Source: a virus. From it: a stretch of 62,933 bases of DNA. The translations under genes and the position numbers were made by a program. Location of the stretch: positions 1 through 62,933 of the IMG/VR virus record IMGVR_UViG_3300032282_004841; one strand, 5' to 3'. Positions 1,925 through 57,112 of the stretch are shown piece after piece. The notes below the pieces were generated by a model. That model searched no databases. It was not told the origin of the DNA and saw only the letters and a program-made list of their open reading frames with translations. Every line of letters begins with the position of its first letter. The stretch's first letter is position 1.

Positions 1925-2806
1925 TTGAGTAAGACACTTGTTACAATGCTAAAATATTGTAACGAGGTGCAAATGTCTAATCAAATAAATTCTATTTTCT
2001 GGAAGTTAAGAGAAAATAAACAAACTCTTAATATACTTTGCGATTTTTATAATGAAAAAGTTTTATATGACTTGTCTAAGACAGGTCATAATTTCTTTGT
2101 TTTGCCACCAAATAGCAAATACGAATGGAATAATCTATACAGAAAAAAACCTGATAATATTTGCTTATTAAAAAAAACTGAAGAACTATTTTTTAATTTT
2201 ACGGAATACGCATTTGATCTTTTTATAAATTTCACTAGTAAAAATAACAATCTTTTTTTTCATCTTGGAATACCGAAGCTAGACAATAAAGATTTTATAG
2301 GCATAGATACTGATTTATTTTCTCTTTCAGAAGATAAAAATGATTTATGCATATATGTTAATGGAGAATTTAAATTTGATGTAGAAGAATTTGATTTAGT
2401 ATCAGAACAACTAGAACTTGTAGTTATAGATGATAATACAAGATTAAGTTTTAATAAGCTTTTAAATCTTTATAAAACATCAAGCATCTATCTAAATTTT
2501 TCAAAAAAAGAAAAGATTTCAGTTTCTATGTTAGAAGCTATGTCATGCGGTTGTGTTCCTATAGCTTACGAAACAAAAGAAAATCAAAAAATAATTACTC
2601 ATGGTGAAAATGGATTTCTTTATACTTCAGTTGTTGATATGGTAAACATAGGAAAAAGAGTGCTAGGCTCAAAAGACTTTTTAAAAAGAATATCTATTAA
2701 TTCTAGAAATTCAATTATTAAAAGTTTTTCTTTGGAAAGCTATAAAAAAAATTGGAATGAATGTATTTATTCAACAATAGAAATGAATTGGTGGGAACAG
2801 ATATGA
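1925..2806 (+). CDS. GT4-like glycosyltransferase with TTG start
   Basis: A 293-residue protein whose C-terminal half matches GT4 glycosyltransferases. EX7E glutamates E196 and E204 lie in KEKISVSMLEAMSCGCVPIA, followed by a HGENGFLY donor-loop motif (226-233). The N-terminal half is short and lacks a clear glycine-rich loop, so the GT-B fold may be minimal and the acceptor domain divergent. The start is a TTG six bases after the PhoH stop, chosen because GGAG lies about 11 bases upstream and because an ATG start would delete part of the first helix. The 3' end is coupled (ATGA) to the next gene. Likely works with the other cassette enzymes on one glycan. Confidence 0.65.
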   Translation: MSKTLVTMLKYCNEVQMSNQINSIFWKLRENKQTLNILCDFYNEKVLYDLSKTGHNFFVLPPNSKYEWNNLYRKKPDNICLLKKTEELFFNFTEYAFDLFINFTSKNNNLFFHLGIPKLDNKDFIGIDTDLFSLSEDKNDLCIYVNGEFKFDVEEFDLVSEQLELVVIDDNTRLSFNKLLNLYKTSSIYLNFSKKEKISVSMLEAMSCGCVPIAYETKENQKIITHGENGFLYTSVVDMVNIGKRVLGSKDFLKRISINSRNSIIKSFSLESYKKNWNECIYSTIEMNWWEQI

Positions 2807-10495: not shown

Positions 10496-11114
10496 AACCA
10501 ATACCTGTTGGCGATGCAGTCAACCCTAAATACCAATCATGTCTTAGTCCTGATCCTGTGGTATTTCCAACAGCATTAAGACCGCTTGTACCAGGAGAAT
10601 TTCTTAAAGGAAGGAAGTTTGCTACTTCGGTAACATCTTTCCATGTTCCAGAACCAGAACCAACAACTAACTGAGATGGGTCTGGATGAACTACTTCATA
10701 TGCAAATGTGCTAACACCACTTGCTTTGCTTGCAATACTACTTCTATCATAAATTATTACTTTTGCATTTTGTGTTCTAACATTTGTAGTTGGGTGTGTA
10801 AATCTAATGTTTAAAGTAGACAGATAATTAGGAATTTTATTAACAGCTATTGAAGTCGAACTTCCTGGGGTTTCTTGCCCAAGAATAGCAGATGCTGCTG
10901 CTGTCCACTTTACATTCCTAGCTTCTAACCCTTGTGTAACTCCAGAGCCATCTGTGATAAATGTTCTCTCTTGAAAACTATTTACCTGTACAGATGTTCC
11001 AAATCCATTGCCGTAAAAACCCAATCCGCTTCCTGCCGGAGCATTTATATTATGCTCTCCAGAAACGCCATTTGTCAGTGGATTAACATAGAAAGATATA
11101 CTTGGGGTAGCCAT
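10452..11114 (-). CDS. Putative virion structural protein, last gene of minus-strand operon
   Basis: A 220-residue protein rich in Ser, Gly, Thr and Asn. A beta-sandwich-like middle contains STLNIRFTHPTTNVRTQNAK and VIIYDRSSIASKASGVSTFA. The C terminus TQYGLYVSLEYL looks like a strand packing at a subunit interface. It has the composition of a virion protein and lies at the end of the tail operon, so a decoration or tail-tip role is likely. AGGAGAAAATTCA precedes the ATG. Its 3' end overlaps the convergent plus-strand operon by 44 nt. I do not recognise the family. Confidence 0.65.
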   Translation of the reverse strand: MATPSISFYVNPLTNGVSGEHNINAPAGSGLGFYGNGFGTSVQVNSFQERTFITDGSGVTQGLEARNVKWTAAASAILGQETPGSSTSIAVNKIPNYLSTLNIRFTHPTTNVRTQNAKVIIYDRSSIASKASGVSTFAYEVVHPDPSQLVVGSGSGTWKDVTEVANFLPLRNSPGTSGLNAVGNTTGSGLRHDWYLGLTASPTGIGSKTQYGLYVSLEYL

Positions 11115-11143
11115 TGAATTTTCTCCTGGTTATTCAGTAATAA

Positions 11144-11956
11144 TTACACCATTTTTGAATCTTCGAACCTTTTAATAGAAGTTAAAAGTTCTTCAGGGGT
11201 TATTTGTTTGCTAAAATGCTCTATTACTTCCCCTATGTCTAAGCCTAGCTCATGCCATCCTATTAGATAATTAACTATCCTGTCAACTAAAGAAAGTCTA
11301 TAAGGAACACCATTAGGGCGACCAAATCTATGAACCCACTTTAAAAATGGAAGGCATAGTGTTCTACCCCCATTTTGTCTAACCTTTTCTTGCATATAAC
11401 CTTCTTCTCCACCAAATCCCTTAAACTTTCTATTGAACGAAGGCCAGTTAGCCTTTTTCATGCAGAACAAGCCCATTCCTTGCATTGTTATGTCAAAAGG
11501 ATCACCTCTATGCACCAATGGGTCTAAGCCCCAAACACCGTACATGTGGCCTGACCATACAGGTGTAAAGTGAGTCGCCATGTTTTTCATATCGTCATAT
11601 AGTAATGGCCCTTGGAGAAGGTCTTTTTCAAGTCCTTTAATGGCTATATAATCTTTTAAATTTCTTATTACATTAGGGGCGAGCAATATGTGTGAGTCTA
11701 GGCAAAGCACATAGTCTTTAGTAGCCCTTTCAAATACGAAGTTTTTAGCTTCTGAAGGAGTATTAGCAGCACTAGGTTCATGAAAGTATTTAGTGTCTGT
11801 TAAATTACAAACTTTTTTAAGCTCTGAACAACCATTTTCTTCAGTATCTATGACTAAAATTTCGCAGTCTTGTACATCTTGATAAAGGCGAAGCGCCTGT
11901 ATTGTAAAGTAGCATCCATCAAAGTCTTTATAGGTTGGCATTCCTATTGTTATCAT
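11144..11956 (-). CDS. GT2/GT27-like glycosyltransferase (polypeptide GalNAc-transferase-like)
   Basis: A 270-residue GT-A enzyme with intact motifs: ITIGMPTYKDFDG (2-14), ILVIDTEENG (33-42), LCLDSHILLAP (84-94), GFGGEEGYMQEKV (180-192) and KWVHRFGRP (206-214). The D87-S88-H89 triad with a late His (H209) is the metal site used by polypeptide GalNAc-transferases in place of DxD. GEEGYMQEKVRQNGGRTL matches their acceptor-side helix. It should move a sugar, possibly onto Ser or Thr of a protein. Unlike the glycan cassette on the other strand, it sits inside the virion operon, beside proteins with poly-threonine tracts that would be plausible substrates. The enzyme lacks the lectin domain of eukaryotic GalNAc-transferases. 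Confidence 0.75.
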   Translation of the reverse strand: MITIGMPTYKDFDGCYFTIQALRLYQDVQDCEILVIDTEENGCSELKKVCNLTDTKYFHEPSAANTPSEAKNFVFERATKDYVLCLDSHILLAPNVIRNLKDYIAIKGLEKDLLQGPLLYDDMKNMATHFTPVWSGHMYGVWGLDPLVHRGDPFDITMQGMGLFCMKKANWPSFNRKFKGFGGEEGYMQEKVRQNGGRTLCLPFLKWVHRFGRPNGVPYRLSLVDRIVNYLIGWHELGLDIGEVIEHFSKQITPEELLTSIKRFEDSKMV

Positions 11957-29300: not shown

Positions 29301-32127
29301 GTAAACCCACATTGGTTAATCCCACTTCCTTAGACAGTTTACCTCTTTGTTGTTTTAAATATTTTAATTCTGCTGCATCTGCCTCTATTTCAGGCTGAGT
29401 TGCTGTGCTACTACGATTGGCGATTACTGCTTCTTGTGCTTTTATAGCATTGTCTATATCTTCATATCTTCGCATTATATCAGTTGCTATTCTAGAAGCC
29501 TCTGCAAGCTTTTGAGTTTCGCTTAAATTTGCTCTAAAAGCCTTGACCTCTTCAAGAATTATTGCTTCAAGAGAAGCTTGGGCTGCTGTAAGATCTGGAA
29601 AACCTTGTACAAATTCTTGTATCTTTTGAAATTTTGGAACTTGTACTTGTGTTTGAGAAGCAACAGTATAAGCTTCTTCGCCTATTGGATTTCCGCCAGC
29701 AGCAAGACCTACTCTACCTCCAGCAGCAAACTTAGCATGTTTGTTCATTCTTTCTAAATTTGCAGATCCTATAGATTTTGCAGAAGAAGGCGAAAATACA
29801 AACTCACCTGGCATTAACATGGCAGGAACTTTTCCGCCCTCAGCATATCCTTTTCTAGAAATACTGCTTAAATTTTCAGCGCCAAGTTTAGCAACAGAAG
29901 ATTTTCTAACTACAAAAGATCCTTCGTCTAGATCCATAGGAACACTATCCGTATTCCCAGTTCCTGGAATCATAAATCCGCCAGCTGCCTTTTTTGTTGC
30001 TAATCTATTTTTAGCTTCTTGAGTACTTAATGTTACATTGCTTATGCCTTCAGATGTTTCTGTTGCATATGTTTTTCTTCTGTAGTTTTCTTGTCCAGCA
30101 GTTATTGTTTCTGTATCTTTAAATGCATCATTGCCTGTTATTTTTGCAGTGTTATAAACAAGTCCTATTTGTCCTAAATCTATAGTCTCTTCTCCCTTGG
30201 AAGAGTTTTTAAAGATATTATCTCCAAACTTTTGAAATCTATATCTAGCTAACTTATCAACTATAGAAGCATCACTAACAGGACTAGCTACATTTTTTAC
30301 CTCGTAAGGGAAACCATTCTTTTCTAAATCTACAGGACTGTTAGATCCTCTATCATCTGATTTTGCTATTCGAATAGCTCCTAGTTGTTTTTCTGCTTCT
30401 TTTTCAAAAAACTCACCTTGCTTTTTATAGTCACCTTTTAAAGATTCTTTTCCTCCGTCAACTTTTATAGTAACTATTTCATATTTAAAATTATCATTTT
30501 TATTTATAGTTTTTCCTGTTTTATAATCCTCTTCTTTAATAAGAGGGTCATTTAATTTACGCTGAATTGCCAAAGAAGACATTTCGTTAACAGAAACAGT
30601 GCCACCACCAGCGTATTTTTTAGGTATTACTAATTCGCCTGGTTCTAACAATGCTTTAACTTTATCTCCACTCCCACTACCAGGAACCACACCACCGTTT
30701 TTCATTTTTATATAACCACCTTCGGCAACCCTATTTTGATTAAATATTTTAGGGTTTGGAGAAGCGGTAACACCAGTAGCAAAACCTTTAACAAACTGTC
30801 CAAAAGAAGTGGCTAGCTTTACAGCAGCAATAGCAGTTATTAAAGGAAGAAGAAATTTTAGAGCATCTGCTAGTTGAATAGCTGCACTTGCTCCAGAAAT
30901 AAAAGTATCAAAGATTTTTTGAAAGCCAGACGATTGAGTAACAGATCGTATAAGAGCATTAAACTCTTCTTTAATTTTTTGTATTTTTATAATGTAAGCA
31001 TTTTGTGCTTGGGCAGCATTAGCAGCCAAAGAAGAAGATCCGCCCAAAGCTACATTGAGCGCCCCTTGACTTACTGAGAATTCTTGCAAAAGAGGTATAA
31101 CTTTTGAGATCTGTCTATAACCACCAAGCTCTTCTACTATAGCTGAGTATTTTCCCGATGTAGTAGGAATGCCAGCCAACGCTTCTGACAATCTCCTTAC
31201 TGCCTCATAAGGGCCTACAAATTGATCTGCTAATTTTGTATTTCCTAAAGCAGTAGCTTCTTGTGATGTATATCTAAGATTTATACCTAACTCTTTAAGA
31301 GACTCTATGGTTTGCCCACGCTGTATTCTTGTAAATATAGTTCTCAACCCAGTACTAATTGTTTCGGCGCTCTCTCTAGTTGTCTGTCTTACAGATGTAA
31401 ATAACGCTAGCAATTCATTTAGATCACCACCAGCAGATTTAAAAGCACCACCAGTTTTTCTAATAACTTCAACTAAGTCAGATGCTTCAACTGCATACTC
31501 GCCAGCAACTGCATTTACGGAACCTAAAGCAGCTTCTAGTCCTGCTGCCCCAATCTTAAATTGGTTTAAAACCGCAATAGCACCTTGAGTTGTATTTGCA
31601 AAGTTTTCAAAGTTAGGAGCTAAAGCAGCTTTTGCTAATGCTTCAAGAGCTATTTTAGTATCATCGATTGATAAGTTAGCTTGTTTTAATGTTACAGCAG
31701 CGCCGATTAAATCCTTACTAGAAACGCCAAGAGCAACGGACAGTCTAGTTACTTCATTTCCAACCGCTTGTATAGATGCAACGCTATCATTTGAAACCTG
31801 TCCTAATCGAACCATTTCCCTATCAAAAGAAATAGCTTCGGCAGTAGACGATTTTATAGCACTTACTAAAGTAATCATTGAACCAGCAGCCAAACTAAAA
31901 GCACCAAACCTTTTTGCTGCTAAACCAGCTTGTCTACCAAAACTTTCTACAGAAGTAATAGCCCCTTCTATGTCCGCCTTTATTCTTTTTATTGAATCAG
32001 GATTAGCAAGAGAAAGGTCAACCGTCACTCTTTTGTTTTGAAGTGCTTTGTTGATATCTCTTGATATTTTTGTGGCTGCTCCAGATGCGAGAGCGACATT
32101 CATGATTGCGGTAATATTGAAAGCCAT
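20392..32127 (-). CDS. Tail tape measure protein, giant (3911 aa)
   Basis: The tape measure sets tail length and is ejected through the tube at infection. Residues 1-450 follow a TP901-type tape measure start: helical, Ala-rich, with KTGGAFKSAGGDLNELLALF, LRTIFTRIQRGQTIE and VEELGGYRQISKVIPLLQ. Hydrophobic segments lie near 415-440, 1146-1170 and 1190-1235 (SMIPVAGPFLAVIGGATAFL). Residues 820-2110 are coiled-coil-like. Seven Gly-rich 'GG..P..DTVPA.L.PGEFV' motifs lie near 477, 716, 764, 2150, 3266, 3320 and 3740. Between the first two sits a PD-(D/E)XK-like domain. Residues 2190-3260 are polar, insertion-like, with an Ala/Pro linker (PAEQAKPPVIPIPAEEAKP). AGGAAGG precedes the ATG, just after a terminator. 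At 0.15 nm per residue the full length would imply a tail near 590 nm, or about 315 nm for the first 2110 residues. Confidence 0.9.
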   Translation of the reverse strand: MAFNITAIMNVALASGAATKISRDINKALQNKRVTVDLSLANPDSIKRIKADIEGAITSVESFGRQAGLAAKRFGAFSLAAGSMITLVSAIKSSTAEAISFDREMVRLGQVSNDSVASIQAVGNEVTRLSVALGVSSKDLIGAAVTLKQANLSIDDTKIALEALAKAALAPNFENFANTTQGAIAVLNQFKIGAAGLEAALGSVNAVAGEYAVEASDLVEVIRKTGGAFKSAGGDLNELLALFTSVRQTTRESAETISTGLRTIFTRIQRGQTIESLKELGINLRYTSQEATALGNTKLADQFVGPYEAVRRLSEALAGIPTTSGKYSAIVEELGGYRQISKVIPLLQEFSVSQGALNVALGGSSSLAANAAQAQNAYIIKIQKIKEEFNALIRSVTQSSGFQKIFDTFISGASAAIQLADALKFLLPLITAIAAVKLATSFGQFVKGFATGVTASPNPKIFNQNRVAEGGYIKMKNGGVVPGSGSGDKVKALLEPGELVIPKKYAGGGTVSVNEMSSLAIQRKLNDPLIKEEDYKTGKTINKNDNFKYEIVTIKVDGGKESLKGDYKKQGEFFEKEAEKQLGAIRIAKSDDRGSNSPVDLEKNGFPYEVKNVASPVSDASIVDKLARYRFQKFGDNIFKNSSKGEETIDLGQIGLVYNTAKITGNDAFKDTETITAGQENYRRKTYATETSEGISNVTLSTQEAKNRLATKKAAGGFMIPGTGNTDSVPMDLDEGSFVVRKSSVAKLGAENLSSISRKGYAEGGKVPAMLMPGEFVFSPSSAKSIGSANLERMNKHAKFAAGGRVGLAAGGNPIGEEAYTVASQTQVQVPKFQKIQEFVQGFPDLTAAQASLEAIILEEVKAFRANLSETQKLAEASRIATDIMRRYEDIDNAIKAQEAVIANRSSTATQPEIEADAAELKYLKQQRGKLSKEVGLTNVGLPTGDIQSRTKIGTGSTIEVGKGKDYDYAKNEKINISDEIRNRAREKAVKISPSGDGENIASVTKIRLAAEEESKLRKQLILAIGEQLRITTGITDQEVLAEMAVEKFTVAMQQNAKLAKDSEGKLLGLVSLEQDIVDSGKNVDQSMRGVSQELKVGSTAIGKLKLTIRSIEDTLVSAGNEFAEEMRRGGGGITGTFAALRNSRLGRIGAGVAGAGLAIGGQYIASTAGTAEDVDKGLVSANRNIYSSGVGEGINQAATTAIALSMIPVAGPFLAVIGGATAFLLGFGSAVKKAQLELLKLQVDKQAKSTSEKLVELKNFSGLEREQKGTAAFTDVRATVFDIRKTAASEGFSGAKLEEEVRAKSLEKFGSNLGAISEELSNAIANMVKPDDQRKSSDIFNEFKQTTYGQLAIESLGVASGKSAIEVQKHALTLASSAITAKKLEEAQKNLVIVHEKITLRINTLSNSVNLASESFKNISESMGNFSDKLEGRSEFKVQQNTSRLKIGTDSELFNKEADKVFISFGELGDSVKNQAKELNAFVLELPSAFDAAKEKNKDNLGGNLANLTEQNLKEKLKPQGGKFTSTQQDLFDLFKNVLETKETDIKKGGVTGDKITKEALGQTIAEYEGLLQSNSQALNQVTQSYISGLRRISEEQKKYIQEFDKISDKSLSVNKANAAIQARAVRGNPEDFLTKEQRIAPFVERQQNITAGKMEVGGIQDPKTIFDNIKKAAEALEESDKELQASNADLASSNVDAREKARGIAEKNDNLRNVVSSLGDALRNLRDETVTLAEAESRLTKAEKDRENKLSVTENLLTMDRAGKRNLRRGKEAAEQVAGGANLEDMSLKQRKAFFEYTKLYGNIKLPELGGKTGEQVRQVALERAAGGQGVPVGEENKKIDQALQDIKEITIKQKEAAELYAKLIKTENALQIDKLKGVNNDFIKELKNLLITEFNRGVTGQIGVDKIAQDNLKAIEKDPNFKNYTEIIGKGENKQNREKEFPKVFAQENLQNIADDNAKLKNYKEFLPFLQRAENKTNSRDALSTDLNEQKKGFATSFGGLSTPVLNDPKNRGSVFAARKDVEDKIKALELKIKVASGPFSPEQVGQFQPASTKDVENRQMPGGLNGIQRGDELVGLLLVAEKLRNANTSIDKLPKAIDLLTKAIEDLQKRLKKPEEKANGGFIGRSMGGSIYNNPTKDIAQRDKYPTLLSKGEFVMNEGAARNNRPELEAMNKGHKVGYFDVGGRLTQADIDKSRRETLEERARIANNRASMTGSSVKKQSVITQYSSYPYKDRDGIFNRKDFIDTFGEKNADYSNDAEDIAWEAFKKFESGTNQPIKFPRNFVSVSEGVNPISKEDIDLMMKPSSPKNIQDKKDLLLANIKKMEESKEYKEKKSKIKEKYNLTDLKMPEGFQFEGYEKHLNKIRPDRKNNKEGRSEVDDINDVKYTIADIRLEFERAVSDLAYVNAEGRKLSKNESMAQDIVGKLTYSKDTWKDISAPAASLKQITEDANKFDYEDEFFHHLKDITPRYPFSYGNEIDESVSNDIKGMGVYGLRDTWRKVGGSYGSAPNIISSTKNQGFEVSSAGQVGLGGLSEEGADHLINNLKINELRHRAGMGGFKLPSIDPLTGTEISGETNTNQQESDILIDLIKQAREQKNKALAQNIENIKKKVSAEIEAESSLEKGIPLKGVDAKLAKSNENLYARIKNPRLPDDKLPFPVQGFKGEFTPEAEAAPIARPTIAMQEAQAIKNVEMENQTALNRKNRIDEAGRLKEDLFSEAIRHTNPKDLQGKKLDYENVKAFGGKENDIKKMMAFKKAQVQSGDTDPIAQRLHTQIAKTIASHKKPEMDFNDPLVYSDFLKQVDISKLGDVKKLSSVSLKAYADENIPVLNPAIMALQEYYDSVNERRFGFNDTEDFARTIQNKNIELAAKMDREAAMLIARKVRGEVKKESPEIYTEPSKDMNRLMKLYKTYNQAVGIKWQGADDDLIHAGDPPNKRMIDQSMGKHDYQSKNKDYHNIYDQIDIIANDMDYIGKNLSYRNEFSIPVYEKVKRDQAVLESFIRDKIQKAPQGSKNIAVQDFLERNKKEKPAEAAKVIAEEKAKPVVAVPAEQAKPPVIPIPAEEAKPVALNFDPDTVIWPTKTGAFSGKKYLGDTPKGYNATSWWDISQRDIEMDFFGQYGNGTVTDKNGVENPGLMAAGKEKQVEDLKSIYQQIYDYRSKVSVSADKSIKDAAKRVNAEEPDLNSAFEYVETRTAFRKMVSNKIGYDIKLPDGWSRSGFPLGGKEALSIVPPKEFTHKPVRKQGNGGMGDFEWIPINASSGGPVAYRNGGGSIDTMLTPKEKVFSPRKVAQIESRSPGLLSHINSGGKVKHLSLGGQASFTVPDHAPNPKGIPSANTDTVYARLETGSFVVNAKSSTENASLLQHLASGGSVGYYADGGEIDFSKIQKLKTAMPNPNDMQKVQKALKKRKYQDPNEMQKLQTALPEMMTKKLSAVTDFQKRTETFSPEILKMFEAPEELQKVKSVAPKGYADGGAVGYYAAGDRVNEIANKLDTIKRKGQKKLGQRGEEFEKSAKGKIFSPNEIPKLLKDNKEIDKTYLTGMKHFKKGFNNTLDSDIAKEFMDKLKNQKIKGFSGPNEDFNNANYFGEIGKIFNQQDTFLRNQDVTNIQESLDQLNKDRGALGSSINGQVIRQKNKQQINDPLKQIKNPKATIKPMLNAGDFMKEYGTKDEDGSPVHTAITARAEYFNPNIKEKDYLDLRFKPKEGENPKLIEHTIADMIGRPRRFEQGGHVNGASDGDTIPAFLSAGEFVMPRHAVNRIGLGNLEKMRKPQRFYDGGAVGSPRASVFDKMNNVANSQSANSMDVDSLNNAAREFNKAAKSFETSMAKMEKSVNKLEGTMDKLSKVNIPDNITGNITVNNQATVTIDSPDFAKDITTAVGKAVSDITGRLNDVSEGKLDIRDIRNA
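30148..30435 (-). other. PD-(D/E)XK nuclease-like domain inside tape measure protein
   Basis: Residues about 565-660 of the tape measure protein read QGEFFEKEAEKQLGAIRIAK, then SDDRGSNSPVDLEKNGFPYE and VKNV, then KLARYRFQKFG. This follows the order of PD-(D/E)XK folds: a helix glutamate (E572 or E575), an aspartate at the end of the first core strand (D600 in SPVD), a hairpin to E609-x-K611 (YEVKN), then a helix with Lys and Arg. The flanks are the glycine-rich motifs at 477-507 and 716-755, so the domain is inserted between disordered linkers. Nuclease assignment is from motif spacing only. Confidence 0.55.
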
Positions 32128-33401: not shown

Positions 33402-34427
33402 CTACATAGAGTTCTTTTTCATCTGTATGTCACGCTTTACATCGGAAAAATCTAGATCGCTAACTTCGCCCTTTTCCTGTATGATTTTCTGTCTAGATCG
33501 TTTGATAGCCTGAACTTCTGGACTATTCATGGATTCTACCATGTCCTTCTCTTTTTGTGAATGGGCTACTACGAAAATTTCAGAAGAATTCTTAACTTTA
33601 TCTGATAATTTAGAATCTATAGTGTTTTGATTCTTTTTAGTTTCCGATTCTTCTCGCTGAGAAATCATCCACCCATCTAAAGCATCGTCATCATTTATAA
33701 TATCATCAGGGGGGCATTCCATGTGTTCTGCTATGTTTTCATATAACTGACTCCATGTTATCAATGATCTTCTTTCATCGTCTAAATCAACGACAGGAAC
33801 GCCAAAGATAGAACCCTCTGACTTTTTAGCAGACCAAAAGCTTCTCCAGTTATTGTTTTTAGACAACTGTCTTATTTTTTCATCATTCATCTTGTTTTGA
33901 TTATAAAAGACAACAGCCTCATCAAGAAGAGAACTTCTATTCTTCCAAAAGGCCGAATCGTTAAATACCTTATCCCCATTCTCGTAATGTAGACTTGAGC
34001 CAATTAAATACTTGGCCTTAGTTGTATAGGCATACCCACTTGCTGTTAGATATGAATAGGCATACTTCTCTGAGTTTAGATCATTTCTCTCTGACTTAGC
34101 GACTTCTATGACCTTCCTTATTGCTAAACTTTCTTTGTCTTTAAAAAAGTTTTTAAATAGACTTACTTTTAATTTTTCTATTTCTTTAGATATTTTATTG
34201 AGCCGTTCTTCTTTTTCGTCATTCCATATACCATGATCTACCATCATGTCATTTATTTCTGTATCTTTATAAAATCCCTCTACTGAAGCTTCTAGTAGGG
34301 CCTCGTTATATATTTCTTCTGCTACATACCTTTGATATCTATCTGGATGCTTTATTAGATATGTCTTATCTTTGTACTTAAACCTTATTAGTCCAGCTAT
34401 TATTCTAGCTATTAATAAATCTTCCAA
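33402..34427 (-). CDS. Tail assembly chaperone-like protein (paralog), TTG start
   Basis: A 341-residue protein starting at TTG, chosen because AAGGAG lies five or six bases upstream and follows the terminator hairpin. It shares with the protein at 32218 an early beta hairpin (IRFKYKDKTYLIKHPD), a helix EEIYNEALLEASVEGFYKD, the IWNDEKEERLNKISKEI motif and a helix pair ending in an aromatic-rich segment (SYLTASGYAYTTKAKYL). This indicates old duplication. Its C-terminal half differs: WSQLYENIAEHMECPPDDII is like the helices of gpG-T-type or 'DUF' tail chaperones. The tail is basic and disordered. Role inferred from location between tail tube and tape measure genes. Confidence 0.6.
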   Translation of the reverse strand: MEDLLIARIIAGLIRFKYKDKTYLIKHPDRYQRYVAEEIYNEALLEASVEGFYKDTEINDMMVDHGIWNDEKEERLNKISKEIEKLKVSLFKNFFKDKESLAIRKVIEVAKSERNDLNSEKYAYSYLTASGYAYTTKAKYLIGSSLHYENGDKVFNDSAFWKNRSSLLDEAVVFYNQNKMNDEKIRQLSKNNNWRSFWSAKKSEGSIFGVPVVDLDDERRSLITWSQLYENIAEHMECPPDDIINDDDALDGWMISQREESETKKNQNTIDSKLSDKVKNSSEIFVVAHSQKEKDMVESMNSPEVQAIKRSRQKIIQEKGEVSDLDFSDVKRDIQMKKNSM

Positions 34428-40144: not shown

Positions 40145-50200
<10,056 letters not shown>

Positions 50201-53200: not shown

Positions 53201-54900
53201 TCAGTAAGAAAATTATAATTTGGCTCTATTATAAAAATTCTATTGTTTTTTCCAACTGCAAAAGCTCCAGATACAGATGCAAATATATTTACAACTTCCA
53301 CTCTGGTACTTCTATACAAAGTACTTTTGTAATGTACATATCCAGCATCATAAACAGAGAATGAAATTATTGGTCCGCCTACACCCGATATTTTGCTTTC
53401 AAAAATTTCATTTTTATCGCCAAGTATAAAAACATTATATCCAGATGCTACCACTTTTACTATGTTTGCAGATTTACAAGTAGTACTACAAGCTATTGTT
53501 TTAGCGGACCACTTAATTCCATCAACAGACTGAGACATAAATAACAATCCGCTGTCAATAGAAAATAAATACAAAGCCCTATTAAAGTTTACAATTTGAT
53601 TCCAACTCGCCTTTAAATTTAAAGATGTAGAGCTAGGAATCCAATCAGATCCACAAGGGGGCAAGGTTGTAGTAGTAGTAGTTACAGCGGGAACACAAGA
53701 ACTACGAGCTATGATATAACCATCAGATGTTTTTGCCTGTAAAAAAATATCATAAGAACTAAGCGCAATAACTCTTTCCCAATTAGCACTAAGACCTATA
53801 TCTCTAGGAGTCCAAACAAATTGACCATTAACAACTTGTAATTGATAAAGATACTGACCGTTTGCAGAAAGAATAATATCTGTATTATCTGTTGAAGTAC
53901 CATCGGATGCAGGAGTAGCGGATGTGGCGAATTCTTTCCAATCAGATGTTTTTCCACTACTTACTATATTAGGATTTGAAACTATTGATCTATTCATTTT
54001 GTAAAGAATACTAGTGCCATTACCAAGAATTTTTGTAGGGCCAATTTGTGGTGATGAATAACCACCAACTGACTTTATGGTATAACCATTTTCATATACC
54101 CCTCTTTTTAATTCGTAAAATGTAAAATACATAGGCTGTATATGAAGTATAGAAATACTGCCATTGCCACCATTAAATATCATAGAGTCCACAGATGGAT
54201 TAAATGTAAAAAGAGGCATATATTGTTGACTTGGATCATTTTCAACAGCTATGAATTTGTTCGCACTCGTTCGATCAGAAGACATGTTTCCAGATCTATC
54301 CCAAATATACAAAGAATTATTTTCGTCAAAACCTAGATTTATTATAGGACTTTGTGAATTGGAATATATTGTTTTTATTTTTTGACCATTTTTTTCTAAA
54401 TTATTATTAAATGAATTAAACCAGCAATTAAGTTGTTCGGCAGTATAGCCATTTATATAGGGCTGGCCATTGTAAAATCCGTAAACAGCACCCTCCGGCA
54501 TAATAGTAATATCTTCCCATAATTTTGTAAGACTATTATAAAAAGATGTGTAAAAACGAGAATCTATTCCTTTGAAATAAGCTAGGTAGCCATAATTAGC
54601 ATTAACAACTGTTATAAATTCATAACTAGGAGAAGCAACAAGGGGAGTTGTAATATCCCATTTAGTAAGACATGTATCTAAAGGCGAAGCCGTAGTAGTA
54701 GTTGTAGTAGTAGTGCCAAAGGCACTAACAGGAACCCAATCGTTTAATTTAGTATCCCAAAAATATGTTCCAGAATTTGAAGTGTTGTACCAAAATGCAG
54801 GGCGAGTCCTTTCTACTGCTGTAGGTCTTTCGCTTTGCCTAAAAACTACTATGTCTTTAGATGGGTTCGATATTCCTGGAACAATATTTGAATTAGGCAT
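50215..54900 (-). CDS. Large poly-Thr-linked virion protein (1561 aa)
   Basis: Start at the ATG 54900, overlapping the upstream stop by 8 nt and preceded by AGGAAACGCTT; a TTG or GTG start 36 nt upstream would give 12 extra residues. The N terminus is the Trp-rich module (FRQSERPTA, then FWYNTSN and YFWDTKLNDW). Poly-Thr linkers follow at about 75, 410, 920-950 and 1380, separating independent domains. Domains between them include repeats of a beta-propeller-like nature (ISLCDVQGGFLIG; SENALHWTTKAIPAGKWN; NNLLYLNGYFILVGLGKSIY; SWQERNVVDSG) that resemble sialidase/BNR 'S..g..W' repeats. A Cys-rich segment (YDCARIDCLQCVCGG) and one GGxGY repeat (about 1265-1330) follow. Likely a receptor-binding or tail-appendage protein with a glycan-binding propeller. 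The propeller is an inference. Confidence 0.65.
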   Translation of the reverse strand: MPNSNIVPGISNPSKDIVVFRQSERPTAVERTRPAFWYNTSNSGTYFWDTKLNDWVPVSAFGTTTTTTTTASPLDTCLTKWDITTPLVASPSYEFITVVNANYGYLAYFKGIDSRFYTSFYNSLTKLWEDITIMPEGAVYGFYNGQPYINGYTAEQLNCWFNSFNNNLEKNGQKIKTIYSNSQSPIINLGFDENNSLYIWDRSGNMSSDRTSANKFIAVENDPSQQYMPLFTFNPSVDSMIFNGGNGSISILHIQPMYFTFYELKRGVYENGYTIKSVGGYSSPQIGPTKILGNGTSILYKMNRSIVSNPNIVSSGKTSDWKEFATSATPASDGTSTDNTDIILSANGQYLYQLQVVNGQFVWTPRDIGLSANWERVIALSSYDIFLQAKTSDGYIIARSSCVPAVTTTTTTLPPCGSDWIPSSTSLNLKASWNQIVNFNRALYLFSIDSGLLFMSQSVDGIKWSAKTIACSTTCKSANIVKVVASGYNVFILGDKNEIFESKISGVGGPIISFSVYDAGYVHYKSTLYRSTRVEVVNIFASVSGAFAVGKNNRIFIIEPNYNFLTEFAYNNANATGVITANRYKFSAFIPLQFQNKTPKDNWHDNKISLCDVQGGFLIGAEKSVVVDSSFLMGTITDIESAGSSAFVSNQYIERPPMDSEIIISGNGNYVVLYKNNTISYSENALHWTTKAIPAGKWNNLLYLNGYFILVGLGKSIYISKTLQENSWQERNVVDSGDWYGVVFSSKLFISSVYPDKVMWKVSDCLFESIPEPILCNTYTTAYDCARIDCLQCVCGGSTGEFATLLECQQSLYSQRTPPCPYPNPPTYYCVSGAYLSEINGTYTFNGPDLDSPNGKGRFLRYSYTGAKWIITSLTQAYYIGTGFQSYTVPPSTWEKVPSWGIDPAPTLTSGACSTTPTTTTTTTTTTSAPTTTTLAPTKNAPDAVSVLFGLPYLSKFDQNTQAPLTDIRLGFTYLGSSSNIETNGTLSITTSDPEFYVGVKDQSYWSKTSKSPNISWTSGYGAYSFSTNDYRDLQLVVYWTGNNPSVFNNNATHQIILTFSVLLANGTTITTTGIVNLKRDASVAYQVMSSYSDPATWDNIIPSMPSQTAESVNNPILTIEANKYAVTTSPINIFIVDKNAIVANNFNINENSSSYFELNIGNSVWWAVPEATIAPNNYSSSAGIRIPIVNGKGTIAPFTIGLSSQYREGSWRKVLAQKSVVNGKEGIYPFYTSYRISPSNGSVNVNFNTIGLPMIVQYTEPMECISGVVVDGKLIYAPVSNGGFGYESVPEIRIVGGDGDGAQATAEVYNGVIARINITNQGSGYTSRPVIMASNSICPECPKIPIPTCPPGRNCLQTNYNYSGICPASYTCIPCPTTTTTTTTTTLDPNFPLATCQVPASSFAISFISSTNVSSSTFPEMELNSDGYFPLGKIKFDFYHTENDLGTLWRGYNCATKSVRVDIQSVTVKTSHPDFIVTNGISKSNQVKNLSYPDCGISYVAPGWFESIFYCVHWIGSDPSIFTGSNPVEVVLTFEIKVNSFTDGTQILSSGYIATLTQYV
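50741..50770 (-). repeat. Poly-threonine tract (10 Thr), (GTT)n microsatellite
   Basis: Ten threonine codons, of which eight are the same ACA codon, giving a GTT-triplet microsatellite on the plus strand. Preceded by CIPCP and followed by LDPNF. The pure repeat could change length by slippage without frameshift. Confidence 0.9.
52101..52150 (-). repeat. Double poly-threonine tract (10 and 4 Thr)
   Basis: Ten threonines then SAP then four more, ending LAPTKNAPD, at about residues 920-945 of the 1561-residue protein. The plus strand is mostly GTA triplets. A PT lead-in (TTP) extends the mucin-like character. Confidence 0.9.
53665..53682 (-). repeat. Poly-threonine tract (6 Thr)
   Basis: Six threonine codons between CVPAV and LPPCG, so the tract is bracketed by cysteine- and proline-bearing segments, like a hinge between two domains. 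Confidence 0.8.
54691..54714 (-). repeat. Poly-threonine tract (8 Thr) after Trp module
   Basis: Eight threonine codons directly after the N-terminal Trp-rich module (SAFG then Thr run then ASPLDTC) of the 1561-residue protein. Marks the boundary between the shared module and the rest of the protein. Confidence 0.85.
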
Positions 54901-57112
54901 AAGCGTTTCCTGAAAACGAAATCCAATTCGAACCATTGATATCAGTTACCCAAAAATAGATAACTGCATTTTCTGTATCATACCAAACCGCAAAGGAATT
55001 ATCACTAGGATTAACTGTTGGTCTTGTAGATTGTTGATAAAAATTAACTATTCCAGAACCTATCAAGCCTTGATATCCCTGTGGTCCAGTCGGGCCAGTT
55101 ATTCCAGCAGGACCTTCAGGGCCTCTAGGTCCAGTAATTCCTATGTCACCTCTAGGACCAGCAGCACCATTTGTTCCGTTGGTTCCGTTGGTTCCGTTAG
55201 CGCCAGCAGCACCGTCAGAACCTCGTAAATCAGCAAGCAAAAATGTTCTGGTCTTTGCAGATTGGGTAGACTGAATTAATAAAGTAGAGGAAGATTCATT
55301 TATAGGAATATCCCAAGTAACAACATTTTTAGTACCAAGTAATGTGTCATTATTTAAAGTTGTTGCAACAACAGCGTTAGATCCAGAAGTAGTTCTTATT
55401 GCTAAAAGTTCTGGAGAAGCCGTAAAGTCGAAATAATATCTCTGCCCCCTGATTATTGGAATAGCAGCAGTATTTGCGATTCCGCTTATTTCTATAACGC
55501 TAGAATTGTTTGTAACGGTATATAGTGTTCCACCTCTTTGTCCATAATCACCTTGATATCCTTGACTACCCCTGAGTCCTTGCGACCCAGTAAGCCCCTG
55601 TCTTCCTTGAGCGCCTTGAGATCCAGATAAACCAGTCAAACCTTGACGGCCTTGCGGACCTGTAGGACCACCAGCACCACCAATAGCACCAGCTTGAGCT
55701 AAAGTAGACCAATATGTTGGATTTGCATCTGGAATTTTAGAAGCAGTACTAGTACTTGCAAGTATAGCTATATAACTAGTTCCAAGATAATATACTACAT
55801 CACTAACAGAATAGTTATTTGCTGCTGACCAATCACCTCTCCAAGCTATGCCAGCACCAACTGTTCCTTGAAAACCTTGATATCCCTGTGCGCCAGCAGA
55901 GCCAGAAGTACCATTGGTTCCAGCAGAACCTTGATCTCCTTGACTACCAATAGGCCCAGTAGAGCCAACAAAACCCTGATAACCTTGAAAACCTTGATAG
56001 CCACGACCACCTTGATCACCTTGATTTCCATCATTACCAGCCAAGCCTTGTCTTCCTTGATAACCTTGCAAACCTTGTTCTCCAACGCTGCCTTGGCGAC
56101 CTTGAAATCCTTGACTACCTGACCCATCTCTTCCTTGATAACCTTGAACACCAACAGATCCTTGATTTCCCTGAACGCCCTGTTCACCTTGACTACCTTG
56201 AGCGCCAATATAATCAACGCAATTGATAGATCTTGCAATAGAAGTGTTAGTAATTGATTGTAGTACAATACCTGAAGACGGAGCATCTAAAGGAACATCG
56301 TATGTTATGATTTCACCAACAGAACCAGTCGTTTCTATATTATTAGCACTAGTTCCAACCACATTAGTAGTTACGCCACCGCCATTTCTTATAGCTGCAT
56401 AATGAGTAACAGCAGAAAGATCAAATATAAATCTTTGTCCACGAACTAATTCTATTGCAGTGTCATTACTAGCTATGCCATCAACTGCAAATTTTAAAGA
56501 AGAAATACTTACGGCAAAAGAAGTTCCACCTTTAGATCCAATATCTCCTTGATACCCCTTAGAACCTTGAGTACCAGCACTTCCAGTAAAACCTTGTCTA
56601 CCTTGTGCGCCTTGAAAACCTTGGGAACCCTGTCCGCCTTGCAAGCCTTGTCTTCCTTGATTTCCTTGCGATCCCTGATCGCCTTGATCGCCTTGATCTC
56701 CTTTATAACCCTGATAACCAACAGAACCCTGACTACCACGACTACCTTGATCTCCTTGATCTCCTTGAGATCCAACCACACCTTGACTGCCTTGTAAACC
56801 CTGTAATCCAATCGATCCTTTTTCACCTTGCAAGCCTTGTAAACCTTGCAATCCTTGATTTCCATTAGTTCCTGCTAGGCCCTGTCTTCCCTGCGAACCT
56901 TGGGAACCCTGACTTCCAATAGAGCCATCTCCAAAAGAAGCCCAGTATGTAGTAGCCGTAGATGGATTTTCATTTACAGAACCAAGTATCGATATATATG
57001 AACTTAATTCATGGATTACTATATCATTTATTGCGTAAGTATCAGCGGAAGACCAAACGCCTTTATATAGAGTTCCTATAGTAGATGTTCCACCAGTATT
57101 AATTAAAGGCAT
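54893..57112 (-). CDS. Collagen-like tail fibre protein
   Basis: A 739-residue protein with four collagen-like Gly-x-Gln-rich triplet blocks (about 59-197, 297-417, 474-522, 626-687; GSQGYQGRQG type). It starts with a CBM5/12-like module (YKGVWSSADTYAINDIVIHE, about 15-65). A second copy (WRGDWSAANNYSVSDVVYYL, about 425-470) stands between blocks. Two cupredoxin-like or beta modules (FAVDGIASNDTAIELVRGQR near 210; EISGIANTAAIPIIRGQRYY near 535) lie between triplet blocks. The C terminus is the Trp-rich module (FYQQSTRPTVN ... WISFSGNAYA). Collagen-like triplets form trimeric, flexible fibres, and the CBM-like modules could bind chitin or other glycans. The whole layout is a duplicated set CBM - collagen - cupredoxin - collagen. 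Confidence 0.85.
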   Translation of the reverse strand: MPLINTGGTSTIGTLYKGVWSSADTYAINDIVIHELSSYISILGSVNENPSTATTYWASFGDGSIGSQGSQGSQGRQGLAGTNGNQGLQGLQGLQGEKGSIGLQGLQGSQGVVGSQGDQGDQGSRGSQGSVGYQGYKGDQGDQGDQGSQGNQGRQGLQGGQGSQGFQGAQGRQGFTGSAGTQGSKGYQGDIGSKGGTSFAVSISSLKFAVDGIASNDTAIELVRGQRFIFDLSAVTHYAAIRNGGGVTTNVVGTSANNIETTGSVGEIITYDVPLDAPSSGIVLQSITNTSIARSINCVDYIGAQGSQGEQGVQGNQGSVGVQGYQGRDGSGSQGFQGRQGSVGEQGLQGYQGRQGLAGNDGNQGDQGGRGYQGFQGYQGFVGSTGPIGSQGDQGSAGTNGTSGSAGAQGYQGFQGTVGAGIAWRGDWSAANNYSVSDVVYYLGTSYIAILASTSTASKIPDANPTYWSTLAQAGAIGGAGGPTGPQGRQGLTGLSGSQGAQGRQGLTGSQGLRGSQGYQGDYGQRGGTLYTVTNNSSVIEISGIANTAAIPIIRGQRYYFDFTASPELLAIRTTSGSNAVVATTLNNDTLLGTKNVVTWDIPINESSSTLLIQSTQSAKTRTFLLADLRGSDGAAGANGTNGTNGTNGAAGPRGDIGITGPRGPEGPAGITGPTGPQGYQGLIGSGIVNFYQQSTRPTVNPSDNSFAVWYDTENAVIYFWVTDINGSNWISFSGNAYA

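Follow-up and report, generated by a model that had tools for sequence, protein, structure and literature searches.

Tape-measure proteins (TMPs) set the length of the phage tail and belong to the earliest phage proteins that arrive in the cytoplasm. To our knowledge, the known enzyme-bearing TMPs act on the cell wall; Piuri and Hatfull reportedly described in 2006 that the TMP of mycobacteriophage TM4 has a peptidoglycan hydrolase motif. Here, we analyzed an IMG/VR virus record of 62,933 bases (this whole stretch is referred to as the window), which is from a large uncultivated phage and codes for a very long TMP. A variable slot of this TMP houses a domain that resembles PD-(D/E)XK nucleases. 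As in TM4-type TMPs, an enzymatic domain would be built into the TMP; here, however, the predicted active sites are of the nucleic-acid type and are found in an exchangeable slot.

Packing of the TMP in the tail tube and its ejection are established for other phages, and TMPs end up at the inner membrane while the genome enters (PMC13190303). Thus, a TMP nuclease would arrive in the cytoplasm no later than the DNA. The TMP-like effectors of contractile injection systems (Sle1/Tme) carry exchangeable functional domains; the likeness is that of a TMP-like coiled coil with exchangeable domains that is ejected from a tail-like machine (PMC13277306, a text in which the word nuclease does not occur). 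Sle1/Tme belong to bacterial injection systems and have C-terminal functional domains, whereas the protein considered here is the TMP of an infectious phage and has internal slots. The polyvalent proteins found in phages and conjugative elements are effectors with many domains that are predicted to accompany the DNA into the cell, and their metallopeptidases are thought to separate the domains; TMPs are not mentioned in that study (PMC5512222). No polyvalent domain family was confidently found in the TMPs analyzed here (there is a weak LPD14 match in locus L005, E 0.002). Relatives carry J-domain (below cut-off), HExxH and SNase-like segments; in the window, the nuclease-like domain is the only one identified. 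In the open-access literature, we did not come across any TMP described as containing a nuclease. Enzyme-bearing TMPs and TMP-like effectors are already known, and a nuclease within a TMP is new as far as we found.

Within the PD-(D/E)XK superfamily, the predicted order of core elements in the window domain fits that of the archaeal Holliday-junction resolvase Hjc and of VRR_NUC/FAN1, which provide the best rows in the structural comparison with VIA-align. In contrast to Hjc, the domain is embedded in a TMP and is not a stand-alone resolvase, and its Z values do not exceed 4.5. Hjc membership was rejected because there is no match to PF01870.

The nuclease-like domain and its putative active site

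It is reasonably probable that residues ~546-662 of the TMP form a PD-(D/E)XK (restriction-endonuclease-like) domain whose metal-binding site is complete (E575, D600, E609, K611), and that this domain occupies a cassette slot between glycine-rich linker motifs and is an ejected cargo nuclease. The assignment of active site and fold is fairly well supported by alignments and by a structural model. An earlier note, made from the DNA sequence without database searches, had proposed a PD-(D/E)XK nuclease-like domain inside a TMP, with residues 565-660 encoded at 30148-30435 (minus strand) and placed between two glycine-rich motifs about 240 residues apart. The coordinates are exact and both motifs were found (Table 1); the domain itself is supported by conserved catalytic residues, the predicted order of its elements and a weak structural match. 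The surrounding open reading frame (ORF) is identified as a phage TMP by the presence of PF10145 in a very long protein.

Direct homologs of the window slot domain are found in the same slot of three other TMPs (L042, L050, L051) and align with it at 34-44% identity. All four have kept Q570-G571, F574, E575, D600, P607-Y608-E609, K611-N612, D624-K625-L626 and a YNTAK stretch. The catalytic residues proposed earlier were E572, D600 (SPVD) and E609-x-K611 (YEVKN). The latter three are present and conserved in the homologs. E572, however, is replaced by K or N, so that the motif-I glutamate is assigned as E575 (G571-x-x-F574-E575). With this correction, the window domain has the PD-(D/E)XK catalytic set, consisting of a helix-borne Glu, an Asp and (D/E)xK. 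When nine divergent slot domains, mostly 15-42% identical, are aligned, no columns other than G, F, E, D and K are invariant. All 13 slot domains examined from three sequence groups have the pattern GxxFE-(12-45)-D-(6-55)-(D/E)xK, as against 1.9% of shuffles, a test that is not blind, as the 13 domains were chosen partly by eye on the motif. The conservation seen in the alignments is the stronger evidence. A scan of the DNA for the EVK motif was uninformative.

An AlphaFold2 model of the window slot (predicted template modelling score 0.66) has core blocks with a predicted local distance difference test (pLDDT) mostly of 70-86 and a disordered tail beyond about residue 662. The core elements are a strand (546-556), a helix (567-582), two strands (601-603 and 606-611), a further helix (619-639) and a last strand (648-659). 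This order (strand-helix-strand-strand-helix-strand) fits the alpha-beta-beta-beta-alpha-beta core, with one classical strand not resolved. In the model, the first core helix bears E575 and the second helix K625; D600 directly precedes the short strand, and E609 and K611 belong to the strand that follows it. A structural match to the PD-(D/E)XK fold exists in a second look with VIA-align; it is weak, and Foldseek alone gave nothing significant. The VIA-align list includes Hjc 1ob8 (Z 4.5, root-mean-square deviation (rmsd) 3.6, 89 aligned) and Hjc 1gef (Z 4.4, rmsd 3.4, 75 aligned; model 61-160 on chain 1-105), and also FAN1, CdiA-CT, VRR_NUC, Cas4, BamHI, DpnI, NaeI and TnsA. We judge about 47 of the 50 listed rows to be restriction-endonuclease-like proteins; the Z values are low in absolute terms (maximum 4.5). 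Many of the named Foldseek matches in BFVD are nucleases as well, none of them significant. The structural argument is the uniform VIA-align list taken together with the catalytic conservation.

Several results weigh against assignment as a cargo nuclease. The AlphaFold2 model was built on four sequences only and has a mean pLDDT of 64.7; a model of the domain in L009, a related one, built with nine sequences, was unsuccessful (pLDDT 38.9) and was not used. Foldseek had its best PDB match at E 0.59 and its best BFVD match, a VRR-NUC protein, at E 0.03. The window domain has no significant match to nuclease families in Pfam, NCBIfam, PHROGs or PDB sequences, and a search with PF01870 (Hjc) hit none of nine records at E<=10, with the control detected in 11 of 14 genomes. 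Many true members of the PD-(D/E)XK superfamily also lack a significant sequence-profile match; thus, the missing match limits membership and does not exclude it. Searches of isolate phages revealed no cultured phage with the domain and no relative of the slot domains, with matches at chance level only. In four of the closest isolate TMPs (SPbeta, Enterocloster CB473P3, Gordonia GordTnk2 and Geobacillus E3), the domain is absent as judged with a hidden Markov model (HMM). A genome collection search yielded a single relative, a contig in a gammaproteobacterial metagenome-assembled genome (MAG). Finally, a nuclease that is made late in infection could damage the DNA of the phage itself. How this DNA is spared would have to be explained; candidate ways are DNA modification, substrate specificity or a domain that stays inactive until ejection.

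Cassette exchange and the wider domain family

Whether the domain comes and goes between the glycine-rich motifs had been raised earlier; in homologous TMPs it does so, by cassette exchange. The identity of the upstream TMP and the content of the slot do not track each other. The closest TMPs (L002, L009 and L005, the latter being the same as L007 and L011; the L005 and L007 contigs have 221 and 206 kb) are 78-80% identical to that of the window over the first ~490 residues, while their slots have 26-32% identity to the window slot in an alignment that left the motifs out of register. These slots again read GYxFE ... FP(V/I)D ... VE-x-K. The slot type of the window is common to TMPs that are 57-59% identical upstream and not to the ~80% relatives, and thus has probably moved between lineages. 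L051 and L040 are 96% identical upstream and carry different inserts. Their DNA identity is 84-91% before the slot, 27-45% within it and 90-95% behind it, with sharp boundaries; the L040 insert has its own GxxxE ... MDF ... IETK.

Another pair, L024 and L026, is also 96% identical upstream, with a PD-(D/E)XK-like insert in L024 (GKKFE ... YPVD ... DIKFK) versus an SNase-like insert in L026 (locus ~10895-11280; TVDGDSLNVG ... RLEGVDAYEL ... KYGRPMF). The L026 insert matches PHROG 452 ("endonuclease") at 2.4e-9 and, weakly, a phage "thermonuclease family protein" (0.03); Pfam SNase is below cut-off (0.039). It is a nuclease fold different from that of the L024 insert. The staphylococcal nuclease family (PF00565, PHROG 452) occupies the equivalent slot in L026; it differs in fold from the window domain and is not in the window slot. 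One nuclease type taking the place of another in this slot speaks for a nuclease rather than a structural role. A match of the L024 slot to PF09588 (YqaJ, 0.0053) is below cut-off and too weak to use. As judged from the ratio of nonsynonymous to synonymous substitution rates (0.33-0.41 for the domain versus 0.11-0.16 for the TMP N-terminus), the slot domain is under purifying selection and yet evolves faster than the TMP N-terminus, as for conflict proteins.

The nuclease-like feature also recurs across this TMP group and is not a one-off. A survey by alignment N-terminal to the slot gave 426 loci, of which 80 were kept; dereplicated together with the earlier loci, they represent 103 TMPs. An iterated HMM seeded by the motif found 69 domains in 65 of these 103 TMPs (63 of the 91 TMPs longer than 900 residues). 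The catalytic columns are G in 69/69, E in 68/69, D in 67/69, D/E in 69/69 and K in 65/69 domains, and a further downstream K is conserved in 61/69; part of this conservation is built in, because 62 HMM seeds were chosen by the motif. Family members share down to ~13-20% identity, and the remaining positions are less conserved than the catalytic ones. All HMM matches are in long ORFs, except for one short ORF in L137. Pfam and PHROG searches with 33 diverse members gave no informative match, and a PDB search with the 33-row family profile returned only calmodulin-like and transporter noise (E>=0.18). When the window group is compared with the wider family by hhalign, the motifs are in register (GxxFE with GxxFE, VDL with FDF, EVK with DAK and K625 with the conserved K), at a pairwise E of 0.0006 and a probability of only 29%. 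The family HMM does not recover the window group itself. Common ancestry of the two is likely, not proven.

Some family copies are probably inactive, as the slot domains of L105, L146, L156 and L157 have a degenerate motif III (DAR, DATRT, DVTRT). Two family copies per TMP occur in four of the surveyed TMPs. One of these is L082, a contig in a gammaproteobacterial MAG (residues 650-752 and 946-1053).

The TMPs contain other segments. A shared domain (THFTH..GY..SNxGxDLP..W..DW..VFKTL) is found in the same slot of different TMP lineages (L023, L025/L027, L028, L030, L069). A J-domain-like segment with HPD (HSD in L026) is located between slot 1 and the next motifs in L023, L024, L026 and L029 (PF00226 in L029, residues 882-935, 3.4e-5, below cut-off). 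Zincin-like HExxH segments (e.g. VVHEMAHVAD, LGHEVGHAVD) are present in L009 (residue ~2230), L028, L056/L057/L072, L071 and L073; these could be proteases separating domains. The slot of some relatives holds J-domain or HExxH segments.

Table 1. Location of the tape-measure gene, its slot and the residues of the nuclease-like domain in the window
Feature	Position	Strand	Basis
Tape-measure protein (TMP), 3911 residues	20392..32127	-	PF10145 E=7.7e-20, residues 125-335; PHROG tape-measure families, best 9e-16
Variable slot 1, TMP residues 507-715, houses the nuclease-like domain	29983..30609	-	flanks kept, content swapped among relatives
Upstream glycine-rich flank, residues 478-503, GGVVPGSGSGDKVKALLEPGELVIPK	30619..30696	-	conserved across relatives
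Downstream glycine-rich flank, residues 716-744, GGFMIPGTGNTDSVPMDLDEGSFVVRKSS	29896..29982	-	conserved across relatives
Predicted folded core, PD-(D/E)XK-like domain, residues 546-662	30142..30492	-	AlphaFold2 model, VIA-align second look, alignment
E575, putative motif-I glutamate, helix 1	30403..30405	-	invariant in both homolog alignments; family column E 68/69
D600, putative motif-II aspartate	30328..30330	-	invariant in both homolog alignments; family column D 67/69
E609-V-K611, putative motif III (D/E)xK	30295..30303	-	invariant in both homolog alignments; family D/E 69/69, K 65/69
K625, helix 2, conserved Lys outside the classical motifs	30253..30255	-	invariant in direct-homolog alignment; paired by hhalign with K kept in 61/69

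Elsewhere in the window, a 739-residue protein with collagen repeats (54893-57112, minus strand; PF01391 2e-48, weak CBM_5_12 match) is likely a tail fibre or adhesin. In a 3351-residue protein (40145-50200, minus strand), the sole recognised part is an FN3-like stretch (PF16656, 2e-7). Two glycosyltransferase group 1 genes on the opposite strand (90-1214 and 1925-2806, plus strand) are possibly for virion or DNA glycosylation. A PF00565 SNase match at 34179-34373 (minus strand, in ORF 33402-34427) has 14.4 bits, is below cut-off and is probably due to chance.

Proposed function of the domain and possible implications for phage entry

The best reading is that the window domain is a catalytically competent nuclease carried by an ejected TMP. 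The TMP would be packed in the tail tube with the nuclease domain as a passenger and, once ejected at infection, would pass the cell envelope before the DNA does. The passenger would then fold or be released on the cytoplasmic side and would cut nucleic acid early in infection, most likely host or competitor DNA, or RNA. We infer the ejection of the slot segment, the catalysis, the substrate and the timing. Host or competitor nucleic acid is the preferred target, and the main rival is processing of the genome end.

According to this rival, the domain would act on the incoming phage genome, trimming or resolving ends or branched intermediates like a resolvase at the entry site. The layout of the window domain (G-x-x-x-E / VDL / EVK) resembles that of Hjc, Holliday-junction resolvases top the structural rows, and the TMP is near the DNA during entry (PMC13190303). 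For a core step, however, quick swapping with unrelated domains (SNase-like, THFTH, zincin-like, J-domain) would be unexpected, and the domain has no Pfam Hjc match. We regard genome processing as unlikely. Slightly less likely still is a derivative of the fold that is structural or has lost catalysis and only binds DNA, for example to keep the end of the genome in place at the tail. The weak structural similarity and the loss of the lysine in 4 of the 69 family members (e.g. DATRT) would agree with it, but nothing in the family is better conserved than the catalytic quartet, which mere binding would not require.

A selfish or recombination-promoting nuclease, which would cut cassette-free TMP genes and drive its own spread like homing endonucleases, is improbable. 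Cassette exchange does have sharp boundaries, and phage nuclease genes sit at exchange boundaries (PMC10448857); against this, the domain is in-frame within a structural protein, and the same slot also holds domains that are not nuclease-like. Plain chance, by which charged residues of a variable linker mimic the motif, would account for the lack of a curated family that recognises the domain, but it is rejected as highly improbable, being largely refuted by the conservation in the 69 family members, along with that across very divergent relatives and the ordered predicted core.

Beyond the cargo nuclease of the window, we tentatively raise the wider possibility that many uncultivated phages, as a large group, use the TMP and its cassette slot as a general platform for delivery, similar to polymorphic toxins. 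The passengers would include two folds of nuclease as well as zincin-like, J-domain and unknown domains, the commonest being a previously undescribed PD-(D/E)XK family (65/103 TMPs), and they would be swapped to counter hosts or competitors at entry.

A survey suspected domain mosaicism of TMPs and could not confirm it (PMC10684548); the cassette slots look like clear cases. They also offer a testable parallel to the TMP-derived effectors of contractile injection systems (PMC13277306). If TMPs indeed carry interchangeable nucleases, phages have a means of delivering first-strike effectors that goes unnoticed in annotation, since neither Pfam nor NCBIfam recognises the domain family and PHROGs does not recognise it as a nuclease.

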